The notes under the pieces: generated by a model
What the model was told of the DNA's origin: nothing
What the model saw: the letters and a program-made list of their open reading frames with translations, nothing else
Databases searched by the model: none
Source of the DNA: Planktothrix rubescens CCAP 1459/22
GTDB lineage: Bacteria > Cyanobacteriota > Cyanobacteriia > Cyanobacteriales > Microcoleaceae
Reading direction: 5' to 3'
Assembly: GCA_904830895.1 (NCBI GenBank)
Contig: LR882958.1
Coordinates: 2,040,001-2,104,000 of the forward strand
Length of the DNA: 64,000 nt
Shown here: piece after piece, positions 28,472 to 31,889 of the stretch
Layout of the letters: each line of letters begins with the position of its first letter
Position numbering within the stretch: position 1 is the first letter of the stretch
Position numbers and translations under genes: made by a program

Positions 28472-28578
28472 GGGTTTGGACAAGATGGGCAATTTTAGAC
28501 AATCTTTTCTATTTTGCCATATTTGGGCTTATCGTTGTACTCTAGGATCTTTCAATTCTTGGATAATCTTTTTTTTAG

Positions 28579-29037
28579 TTATTTTATCGTTTTCCAATCT
28601 ATTAATCCCAAATCACGCAATGGAGGTAATTCTTCTACAGCTTCTTCAAACGCAGGAGTTTCTTGAAAAATATCATCAAGTGTTAATAAATGAATTTTAT
28701 AGTTATCAATGTACCGATGACCATATAATCTTTTGATAAAAGTATCTTTATAACCACTTCCTGCTAACATTACACTTAGATCGACACGGTGGTAGTCAAT
28801 ATCTGAGTAATACATACGGGCATCATCTTTATCTAATAGTTTAGACCTTAATTTGCATTGAAAATGGATTTTGCGGTTTTGATCCCAACCAAATCCATCA
28901 ATTCCATCATCTGGCCCCGCTACACCAGGAGTTAGCCCCAGACGCGCAGCAAATCTACGACCTAATTCTTGTTTTTTAGAATTATTAGCCGATAGTATAA
29001 CCTGGATAATTTCATGAATTATTAAAGGATCATCCAT
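28579..29037 (-). CDS. Mrr-like PD-(D/E)xK nuclease, third gene of ParA operon
   Basis: A 152-residue protein with a short restriction-endonuclease-like core: GPDDGIDGFGW followed after about a dozen residues by IHFQCKL. This matches the D...QxK active-site pattern of Mrr-type restriction enzymes (Asp near residue 44 and Lys near 61, approximate). An N-terminal helix and a C-terminal half without named domains complete it. The start used is the ATG at 29037, four bases after the preceding stop, which indicates translational coupling; the longer frame runs back into that gene. It probably cuts or binds DNA, but no activity is proven. Confidence 0.7.
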   Translation of the reverse strand: MDDPLIIHEIIQVILSANNSKKQELGRRFAARLGLTPGVAGPDDGIDGFGWDQNRKIHFQCKLRSKLLDKDDARMYYSDIDYHRVDLSVMLAGSGYKDTFIKRLYGHRYIDNYKIHLLTLDDIFQETPAFEEAVEELPPLRDLGLIDWKTIK

Positions 29038-29041
29038 AGTA

Positions 29042-29461
29042 TTAATTAACTTGATTGTTAAGGGAATAGAATGTGTTGTAAAGTAATTTAATTCCCACAA
29101 TAGCACACTCACTAAATTGATCTTTCATTCCACAACTTTCAAGCACACTTAAAGTTTCAACACTTAGCATTACTTCCGTTTCCTGTGAACCTAATTCCTT
29201 TGGATACTCTTGTAAATCCTTTAGTTTTTTGTCTTGTTCTTTTATATATAATAGAGTCCCTCTGATTGCACAGTTAATCAAGGATTGAAATGATAAACCC
29301 AATCCTTGAGAAAGAATTTGAACCATTCTTTCTTGATCTTTAGTGAATTTAACTATGCTTATGTTTTTAGGAGAAGTATCTTTACTTTGCTGAGTAACTG
29401 TCTTAATTTCTTGTTCTAGCAAAGGGTCGTCAATAATATTTTTTTTATCGTTAATAGTCAT
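29042..29461 (-). CDS. RHH-like protein with two repeats, between ParA and nuclease
   Basis: A 139-residue protein. Two segments each look like a short strand followed by two helices, as in ribbon-helix-helix proteins: ISIVKFTKDQERMVQILSQ... (residues about 33-72) and TEVMLSVETLSVLESC... (about 94-130). Such a tandem could act as a pseudo-dimeric DNA-binding protein, for example a ParG/CopG-type centromere-binding partner of the ParA upstream. GGAGG lies 8-9 bases before the ATG. The family was not recognised, so the RHH call is structural inference from pattern. Confidence 0.55.
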   Translation of the reverse strand: MTINDKKNIIDDPLLEQEIKTVTQQSKDTSPKNISIVKFTKDQERMVQILSQGLGLSFQSLINCAIRGTLLYIKEQDKKLKDLQEYPKELGSQETEVMLSVETLSVLESCGMKDQFSECAIVGIKLLYNTFYSLNNQVN

Positions 29462-29479
29462 TTTTAATCCTCCAACTTT

Positions 29480-30139
29480 CTATAGGTTAATTAGTGAACA
29501 AAAATTTTCATAGAGATCCTCACAATTTTCATAAGTCCAAATATATTTTTTGTCCTCATATAAAGCCTCTTGCATTTCATCTTGCAAATATCTGATTTCT
29601 TGAGAAATTTCGCATTGATGGGGAACTATAGAAATAGTTTCCAATTTATTGTTGATGATATCTTTGGATACCCCCAAAGGGACAATAGTAACTTGAACTT
29701 TATCAGGAAGCCCTGTATTGGATTCTAGCTTAGATACCATACCAAGAATTCTATCAAGATTACCTAAAGCTTTACTTTTTTGGGACGCATTAATAGGGAT
29801 TAAAATTTTATCTGGATTGTCATTCACAATAACCTTGACAGTATCTTCTCTGGCTCCTTTTGCATCAATAACGATATGATCGTATTGGGTTGGATCAACA
29901 ATATTTAAAAGATTCTCTCGTTTAGGATTGTAAATTAATGATAAATTATCCTCCAAGAATACCTCCAATTCTTTCTTCGGCTTGCTTGGAGCAAAAAACT
30001 CCCAAGCTTGGTGTTGGTCATCACAGTCTAGGAGTAGAGTCCGAGCCCAGGGAAACTTTGATATAAGAACACCTGTTATATGTACAGCAAGAGTAGTCTT
30101 ACCTACCCCGCCGTTATTATGAGTGCATAGAATGATCAA
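29480..30139 (-). CDS. ParA/MinD-family ATPase
   Basis: A 219-residue deviant-Walker ATPase (NNGGVGKTT; Walker B-like LLLDCD; DHIVIDAKG). These proteins position DNA or protein cargo using ATP-dependent dimerisation on nucleoid DNA. I chose the TTG at 30139: it is preceded by AGGAG at good spacing and yields the typical ParA start (MIILCTHNNGGVGKTT). The frame continues upstream to an ATG at 30169 that lacks such a site. It is the first of three tightly spaced genes (18- and 4-base gaps). It is unlike chromosomal ParA/Soj in context and may come from a plasmid or island. Confidence 0.85.
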   Translation of the reverse strand: MIILCTHNNGGVGKTTLAVHITGVLISKFPWARTLLLDCDDQHQAWEFFAPSKPKKELEVFLEDNLSLIYNPKRENLLNIVDPTQYDHIVIDAKGAREDTVKVIVNDNPDKILIPINASQKSKALGNLDRILGMVSKLESNTGLPDKVQVTIVPLGVSKDIINNKLETISIVPHQCEISQEIRYLQDEMQEALYEDKKYIWTYENCEDLYENFCSLINL

Positions 30140-30278
30140 TATTACTCTCCTTTGGTTAGATGTTTTCAACTATAGCATAACCTCCCTTGATATTGTAGCA
30201 GTACGACTGCCCTGAACCCTATCCTGCTTATTTCTCAGTCGTTTTCTGCCTCTCCCCAAAAAAAAATTGAAAAAGGGG

Positions 30279-30383: not shown

Positions 30384-30501
30384 TCCTGGTGCCTATGGCT
30401 CAGTGGAACCACTCCGATCCATCTCGAACTCGGAAGTGAAACGCTGACACGGCGAAGATACTTGGAGGGTAGCCTCCTGGGAAAATAGCTCGGTGCCAGG
30501 T
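30384..30501 (+). rRNA. rrf: 5S ribosomal RNA, solitary copy
   Basis: About 118 bases with the complete 5S pattern: the 5' strand cctggtgcc pairs with the 3' strand ggtgccagg (two G-U pairs), and the conserved internal segments ccgatccatctcgaactcgg and gaagtgaaacgc are present. Neither 16S nor 23S genes occur nearby; upstream is the divergent ParA operon. It therefore appears to be an extra 5S gene outside the main rRNA operons, with its own promoter and terminator. Confidence 0.95.
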
Positions 30502-31016: not shown

Positions 31017-31889
31017 TTATATCGAAATCTCCGGTAGTAGATCTAGAACAGATTTTAGATCTGCTGCTCGATAGTGAAGATAATCCTCCCTTCTAGTTCT
31101 GAAAGATGAATCAGTATTCATGATTGAAGGAAGAATACTTGTATCTGTCAAAGCTAAAACAGTTTGTTTAGCAATCTGTATATAATGAAGGCTTGATCTA
31201 TTTCCCGCCAACTTATGTATTAAAGTCGGGTAACACACAAATTCATAAACGATATTTTCTAGCATAAAGACAAGAATAAATGCAGGTTTGAGGTTAGGGT
31301 CAGCACTTCCACATTCGCTTTCGTAGACCTTCCAATATCCCTCAAGACTTTTTCCTTTTCTGCTTTGTGATTTTTGACATGAGTTGATGATAGGCCTGTC
31401 ATGATCGTTGATACTAACGACTATCACAACGCAGTTATATTCTTTTAAAGATCCATCTTCATCTTCATCTATTTCTGTATAGTATCCCAGCACTACAGAC
31501 CGCACATCAGGGAATAGGGTAGTCTTCTTATTGATAACTTTGAGAAGGCGACTGATTTCTTGATTGGGTTGTATGGGTTTTCTTGCGTATGTTTTAACCC
31601 GACTGTAGTTAAGGTGTGGTTTGAACAAATCAATATATAGCTGCTCTTTTTCATTAAGTTGTTCGGTGGTAAATAATTGCCAGTAAATTCTATATAACCT
31701 TTGATTGTTTGTGCGACTTAATTGTGGATACCTGTGGTGTCCTCTCCCATTCCAACGAGCATTAATATTGATAGATCGCCCTACATACCACACTTCTTGT
31801 TCTGCATCGACAACCACATAGATCCCTGGTTGCGGGGGTAATTGTTCACGTTGTTTAAGGGGAAGACTAGACCATGATTTCCATTCCAT
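31017..31889 (-). CDS. GIY-YIG nuclease-domain protein with long C-terminal extension
   Basis: A 290-residue protein. Residues about 18-100 are a GIY-YIG domain: PGIYVVVD, then EVWYVGRSININARW and an Asn/Glu-containing helix (LNEKEQLYIDLFKPHLN) that carries the metal-binding Glu. The remaining about 180 residues match nothing I recognise. GIY-YIG proteins nick DNA in homing, repair and restriction. The gene stands alone, downstream of the MCE gene's neighbourhood and near other DNA-associated genes. Confidence 0.8.
   Translation of the reverse strand: MEWKSWSSLPLKQREQLPPQPGIYVVVDAEQEVWYVGRSININARWNGRGHHRYPQLSRTNNQRLYRIYWQLFTTEQLNEKEQLYIDLFKPHLNYSRVKTYARKPIQPNQEISRLLKVINKKTTLFPDVRSVVLGYYTEIDEDEDGSLKEYNCVVIVVSINDHDRPIINSCQKSQSRKGKSLEGYWKVYESECGSADPNLKPAFILVFMLENIVYEFVCYPTLIHKLAGNRSSLHYIQIAKQTVLALTDTSILPSIMNTDSSFRTRREDYLHYRAADLKSVLDLLPEISI

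Follow-up and report, generated by a model that had tools for sequence, protein, structure and literature searches.

In the Dnd systems, an ATPase and a tandem ribbon-helix-helix (RHH) protein make up a DNA-scanning core that is joined by other components, as described in PMC10853773. Here we describe a compact three-gene unit with a related pairing of parts, found in a 64,000-nucleotide stretch of the genome of the cyanobacterium Planktothrix rubescens CCAP 1459/22 (contig LR882958.1, positions 2,040,001 to 2,104,000; hereafter the window). Its products are an ATPase of the ParA type, a tandem RHH protein and a small stand-alone nuclease of the Mrr type. We suggest, with a probability of about 0.45, that it is a horizontally moving, chromosomal, three-protein nuclease module that is targeted to DNA.

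The trio shares features with several described systems. It differs from the DndD/DndE core (and CxC-DndE), known from phosphorothioation systems and related defences against invaders, in that its ATPase is of the ParA type, with no ABC ATPase among the three genes, and it lacks DndA-C, DndF-H and any modification enzyme, its nuclease being a bare Mrr-type domain. In the predicted model, the RHH protein is like the tandem-RHH proteins TraY and DndE, with two strand-helix-helix units in one chain, and the TraY-containing relaxosome of the F plasmid and VirC1-VirC2 of Agrobacterium are among the closest known systems to the trio. The nuclease resembles Mrr, MspJI, AspBHI and the nuclease domain of Avs4 in having a PD-(D/E)xK domain with a D...QxK core, but has no fused domain that could recognize DNA or its modification, and is coupled to an RHH gene and a ParA instead.

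In type Ib partition systems, such as ParF/ParG and delta/omega of pSM19035, a small ParA without a helix-turn-helix domain is followed by an RHH gene, and the trio begins in the same way. The trio differs in its tandem RHH units in one chain, in its third gene, for a nuclease, and in the loss of the signature lysine from most of its ATPases; it is chromosomal in all parsed loci but one, and no centromere repeats were seen in the window. Type II toxin-antitoxin systems with RHH antitoxins also consist of small, packed genes, include an RHH protein and are mobile, whereas the trio has an ATPase as a third partner and a nuclease that resembles restriction enzymes. The parts of the trio are of known kinds; we found no description of the trio itself in the open-access literature searched, nor a named system of this make-up in PADLOC, Pfam, PHROGs or NCBIfam.

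Three genes and their predicted proteins

The three genes follow one another on the minus strand (Table 1), with intergenic gaps of 18 bases (parA-RHH) and 4 bases (RHH-nuclease). The first-pass annotation of the window had proposed an operon with these gaps, encoding a ParA ATPase, a protein with two RHH-like repeats and a protein with a D...QCK nuclease core. This proposal stands: the coordinates were confirmed, the gene order recurs across loci, and the domain calls agree with Pfam for ParA and with AlphaFold2 models for the other two proteins. The genome of the window (G000) comprises 5.7 Mb in 5 contigs, and the closest named relatives of its nuclease come from assemblies labelled Oscillatoriales (97% identity) and Planktothrix (96%).

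Structure prediction supports a PD-(D/E)xK fold for the third protein, with an alpha-beta-beta-beta-alpha-beta core and a predicted local distance difference test score (pLDDT) of 91. Its catalytic core reads D43/D47...F59-Q60-C-K62; among 25 aligned sequences, D43, D47, F59 and Q60 are invariant and K62 is at least 90% conserved. The best structural matches of the predicted fold are the effector domain of Avs4, MspJI and AspBHI. By sequence, neither Pfam nor PADLOC, PHROGs or NCBIfam offered a credible family for it, and the nuclease profile had no sensible match in the PDB. The 152-residue protein consists of the catalytic part only, without a recognition domain.

The RHH protein had no credible match in the same four libraries either, the top one, to the PADLOC model Cas1_II (E = 0.0018), being taken as chance, and a profile of the RHH proteins reached only CopG in the PDB, at E = 0.084. 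The AlphaFold2 model has two strand-helix-helix units (mean pLDDT 82, with 91-95 for residues 41-130), ahead of which a helix is predicted at residues 13-27 with partly low confidence. A structure search with this tandem model gave matches to chains of the F relaxosome and to DndE. The RHH protein is the most divergent of the three, with a mean distance of 0.78 versus 0.55 and 0.60.

The window ParA lies above the Pfam cut-offs for AAA_31 (E = 1.1e-8) and CbiA (E = 2e-6), and the profile of the ParA proteins matched ParA/Soj, McdA and ParF in the PDB, with Orf delta' also among the matches. Its P-loop is of the ParA type, with a K14 that is invariant among 13 aligned sequences, and has N in place of the signature lysine of partition ParA proteins (KGGxGK). 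Among the 43 loci with a readable P-loop, 16 have K at this position; the other 27, which include two remnants, have N, S, D or G. The positioning ATPase McdA likewise lacks the signature lysine (SGGQGKT, as given in a table of PMC9178275). Upstream of parA, the element TTATGCTATAG could serve as a promoter, and TTATGCTA is found in the copies of two congeners (G390 and G391) too.

Table 1. Positions of the three-gene unit and its parts within the window
Feature	Position	Strand	Description
parA-like gene	30139-29480	minus	219 aa; TTG start; P-loop NNGGVGKTT without signature lysine; no N-terminal helix-turn-helix
Tandem RHH gene	29461-29042	minus	139 aa; units at residues 34-76 and 93-138
Stand-alone Mrr-type PD-(D/E)xK nuclease gene	29037-28579	minus	152 aa; motif GxDxGIDG...HFQCK
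Inserted unit, extent	28531-30257	none	1,727 bp; empty allele of six congeners is 53-64 bp
Putative promoter upstream of parA	30162-30182	minus	extended -10-like element, by eye

Linkage, breakage and probable exchange within the trio

As single queries against 388 sampled genomes of the class, the window nuclease matched in 10 and the window RHH protein in 6, the genome of the window being counted in both. Among 388 genomes sampled from the order, a nuclease profile (E ≤ 0.001) matched in 45, or in 37 after eight genomes with weak or fragmentary matches only were dropped. Three of these eight were among five weak matches that we examined, four of which we take to be methylases with an Mrr-like end and one an Mrr-like protein. 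A genome can hold several copies: there are four in G458, and the genome of the window has a second one (G000:C1:2683626). We parsed 50 loci, including the window and the only plasmid copy, and counted 34 of them as distinct; G528:C2, G617:C1, fragments in G554:C271 and G525:C3, and weak profile rows were left unparsed.

When the three-gene order was sought across genomes, the genes were found to co-occur. In each of the 50 parsed loci, the RHH and nuclease genes share a strand, the former directly 5´ of the latter, and a ParA gene, a broken ParA or a remnant precedes this pair in 49; the remaining locus (L110) has no ParA within its stretch, tblastn included. The spacing of RHH and nuclease genes is between -30 and +40 bases in 42 of 45 cases (median 4), measured from the start codon nearest the RHH stop and so biased to short values. 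The three proteins co-evolve: over 26 intact, non-redundant loci their pairwise distances correlate with r values of 0.83, 0.82 and 0.79, and 0 of 2000 permutations reached values as high.

At least one gene is broken or missing in 15 of the 50 loci, although draft errors are possible. Of the 49 loci that could be evaluated for ParA (that of G391, L077, was left out of the count for its N bases), 9 have a broken ParA or none, and the nuclease frame is intact in 8 of the 9. The nuclease is broken or missing in 7 of 50 loci and the RHH gene is broken in 1 of 50 (L032, where a frameshifted RHH gene accompanies an intact nuclease); relative to gene length, the RHH gene is spared (P = 0.026). In two separate copies, L030 (6201-6797) and L032 (782-864), a deletion has left no more of parA than its first 15-17 codons, which include the P-loop, and in L030 this remnant is joined in frame to the RHH gene.

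Because the RHH gene is the best kept, the nearest rival to our reading is a toxin-antitoxin or addiction system, in which the nuclease would be a toxin that damages DNA, the RHH protein would serve as both antitoxin and autorepressor, and ParA would be a regulator, the module being retained because cells that lose the RHH protein die. RHH proteins often serve as antitoxins, the units are small, mobile and present in several copies per genome, and the nuclease may stay intact where ParA is lost. A 2009 toxin-antitoxin survey (PMC2701414) lists toxins among the neighbours of RHH genes; it lists ParA too, in 54 cases marked as part of larger gene associations. We nevertheless think this explanation rather unlikely, given the intact nuclease beside a frameshifted RHH gene in L032, the nearest nuclease folds, which are restriction enzymes and Avs4, and the way in which the RHH gene varies between G388 and G369, which would better fit a change of DNA target.

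This variation is found in modules that are otherwise close. In a comparison of G388 with G369, the nuclease genes share 88-99% of their nucleotides and the parA genes 78-98%, but the RHH genes share 66-79% along most of their length (6353-6750 of L108). Synonymous divergence (dS) is 0.38 for the RHH gene, versus 0.07 for the nuclease. The divergent portion is the larger, N-terminal part of the RHH gene, and the C-terminal end is conserved. Among 12 close pairs, which were our choice from 33, RHH dS is at least twice nuclease dS in five, two of which share L108. Further RHH/nuclease values are 0.22/0.02 (L138/L136) and 0.33/0.08 (L113/L114), for three lineages including G388/G369. Some near-identical modules combine RHH and nuclease genes of unequal ancestry. 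The dS excess suggests exchange of the gene for the putative DNA reader. Judged from these alignments, the units are mosaic in general, with the RHH gene apparently replaced at times.

Insertion sites and probable horizontal arrival

The units are 1.7-1.85 kb in size. That of the window is present in three of ten genomes of the genus (G000, G390 and G391). The site is empty in six congeners, among them a member of the same species (G388); all six have mutually similar sequence of 53-64 bp there. The unit is also missing from G389, whose sequence ends just past the site. Given this similarity among the six and the absence in G389, the empty site is probably ancestral. For the second copy in G000, the empty site is seen in G393, where 27 bp are found instead. 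At a third locus, G388, G369 and G392 carry the unit, and G394 and G389 have other short sequence there.

Several properties of the units fit repeated horizontal arrival. Besides the empty sites, host families are intermingled in the nuclease tree (one well-supported clade of five rows, for instance, spans five families), and in 33 of 34 loci the unit has a lower G+C content than the DNA around it. The cyanobacterial HIP1 site (GCGATCGC) is scarce in the units, with 10 occurrences in 54.6 kb across the 34 loci (0.18/kb), versus 0.95/kb outside the units and 1.53/kb in the 250-bp flanks. A comparison with G+C-matched windows at 18 loci gave 3 sites versus 15.5 expected, a rough figure as the windows overlap. 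In L108, a HIP1 site spans the left junction of the unit.

The first-pass annotation had raised the possibility of a self-maintaining element. The clean empty sites at matching positions lend partial support to a self-maintaining or mobile element. No shared ends or target-site duplication were found by eye at the unit junctions, which differ among loci, and none of the three genes encodes an integrase or recombinase, as a transposon or site-specific element would. Insertion at tRNA genes was set aside, with two such genes in 46 locus stretches. Site-specific homing was likewise set aside: five loci of a close nuclease clade (L036, L118, L127, L129 and L130) have neighbouring open reading frames (ORFs) that differ in length and strand, the only properties on which neighbours were compared.

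These observations bear on the idea that the trio processes DNA for its own spread, with ParA and the RHH protein loading the nuclease and the resulting cut promoting copying or insertion of the module, by analogy with VirC1/VirC2 or with TraY and a relaxase. The likeness to these systems is offset by the lack of a relaxase, of shared ends and of target-site duplications, by the differing ORF neighbours, and by the 53-64 bp (window) or 27 bp (second copy) in the empty alleles, as in illegitimate recombination, and we consider this explanation improbable.

A plasmid-derived island, another origin proposed at first, is not supported. Four different nuclease queries found the nuclease in 1 of 72,556 plasmid records, the window nuclease found it in none of 50,697 phage records, and among viral contigs a single scan produced 155 pattern matches, none of them a confirmed relative. 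The sole plasmid copy is in Synechococcus elongatus UTEX 3055, where the nuclease is annotated as "restriction endonuclease"; there the trio (L026:5794-8450) directly follows an Abi family gene, with an integrase and a second ParA gene nearby. There was no repeat array upstream of parA in the window, a region that was also searched for an RHH operator or centromere. In the approximately 120 bp upstream of parA at 32 loci, inverted repeats exceeded 60 shuffles in none and direct repeats in five; the window copy had no direct or inverted repeat beyond shuffles, although sites that are non-iterated or distant are possible. A palindrome seen by eye in the window was rejected as an RHH operator or centromere, as the copies in G390 and G391 do not preserve it.

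With so few plasmid copies, and so few repeats in front of parA, we regard as very improbable a partition or positioning system of plasmid origin, comprising a type Ib ParA and an RHH centromere protein with the nuclease as a passenger. The layout in the window matches type Ib, ParF and Orf delta' are among the ParA profile matches, and one copy is on a Synechococcus plasmid. However, the nuclease is linked as tightly as the RHH gene, and the signature lysine is mostly replaced, though McdA is without it as well. SepA/SepT of pANL was set aside as a candidate, SepT2 being called an RNase in PMC8924478.

In the window, the unit is located between a minus-strand frame (28492-25316), which we take to be valS, and the upstream region of a 5S rRNA gene on the opposite, plus strand (30385-30501), which lies upstream of parA and is the window's sole match in Rfam, with neither a 16S nor a 23S gene present. 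The stretch 28493-28578 intervenes between the nuclease gene and the presumed valS. Since the unit sits beside valS, this gene may now be transcribed from the promoter of the unit. Further copies of a stretch with the 5S gene's upstream region exist in this genome, two of them nearly in tandem (G000:C1:4456101-4456776). A minus-strand frame at 31017-31889 presumably encodes a GIY-YIG nuclease-type protein, judging by its motif. Three insertion sites (L031, L033 and the window) seem to be adjacent to aminoacyl-tRNA synthetase genes, which may be chance; besides the presumed valS, this refers to two flanking proteins that match class II(A) synthetases and were assigned to their loci by length.

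A proposed DNA-targeting nuclease module and its possible role

In the mechanism we suggest for the module, the tandem-RHH protein would, in the manner of TraY and DndE, recognize specific DNA in monomeric form, and the ParA-type ATPase, which would bind DNA and ATP, would stabilize or license the RHH complex on DNA. Together they would recruit, into a complex gated by ATP, the small Mrr-type nuclease, which would cut the DNA thus marked. The fixed gene order, the correlated distances of the three proteins and the low dN/dS of the nuclease and ParA in the window pair also speak for such a module. Targeting by ParA and the RHH protein is suggested by the lack of a reader in the nuclease itself, by the nature of its partners, a monomer-type RHH protein and a DNA-linked ATPase, and by the parallel with Dnd. 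The target would most likely be invading DNA, or the host chromosome if the module is triggered. Invading DNA seems the likeliest because of the patchy distribution, the copy number, the putative exchange of readers, and the likeness of the nuclease to Avs4 and to modification-dependent restriction enzymes.

A role in defence, one of the possibilities first raised for this locus, is plausible. In PMC13092281, on DefensePredictor, PD-(D/E)xK, P-loop and RHH are the three commonest domains among uncharacterized predicted defence proteins of E. coli, a list that is consistent with, but does not name, a ParA-RHH-nuclease unit. The trio had no credible match to a known anti-phage defence model in PADLOC, and the flanks, scanned without a background set, did not resemble defence islands. 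From 32 loci (18 redundant or special ones, including the window and the plasmid copy, being left out), 172 flanking proteins of at least 110 aa were listed, and 111 from 31 loci were scanned, hand-picked and mostly the first two per side. At E ≤ 1e-10, 103 PADLOC models were matched; the 25 of these that were listed, which include a type II methylase, Cas12f, MzaA, mad3 and PDC-S03, were each matched by at most two of the 111 proteins. Pfam gave 144 families, the best 25 of which were led by TPR repeats and ordinary cellular families.

Several points weigh against a DNA-targeting module. There was no sign of a defence island in the 111 scanned flank proteins, and the unit encodes no methylase and so has no evident means of host self-protection. 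The Foldseek results were modest, with only one match of the nuclease and none of the RHH protein at E ≤ 0.001. The nuclease has QCR for QxK in five loci of one genus, g4 (L034, L117, L119, L126 and L038), and L034 has an altered P-loop residue in addition. ParA may be dispensable, as it has been lost from eight loci in which the nuclease frame is intact. Nuclease dS is at least twice RHH dS in 3 of the 12 close pairs (L029/L109, window/L076 and L131/L135), so mosaicism is not particular to the RHH gene. Finally, the ratio of nonsynonymous to synonymous divergence (dN/dS) is 0.36-0.65 in the G369/G388/G392 lineage.

These ratios, together with the 15 of 50 loci that have at least one broken or missing gene, could also mean that the units are decaying selfish passengers without present function, seen only because they insert frequently. 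This is quite improbable in our view: catalytic residues and gene order have been retained over deep divergence, and between the window and G390 modules, which differ by few changes, the nuclease and ParA have dN/dS values of 0.14 and 0.31, respectively (0.66 for the RHH protein).

If the trio is a DNA-targeting module, it could belong to a new class of ParA-driven immune nucleases, in which ParA would patrol DNA together with a monomeric tandem-RHH reader, recombination changing the DNA that this reader recognizes, and would bring a bare Mrr nuclease to invaders although the host genome carries no protective modification. We put this forward as a tentative extension. ParA proteins are known for moving DNA and cell cargo, and if one is tied to a nuclease in a fixed mobile unit, this would be a new use of the family. 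The trio would also offer a small, three-protein model of how an ATPase and a tandem-RHH protein select DNA for cutting, which is harder to approach in the many-gene Dnd systems. As these modules vary within species, and two of their three proteins carry no label in the family libraries searched, they are candidates for determinants of phage or plasmid resistance in cyanobacteria.
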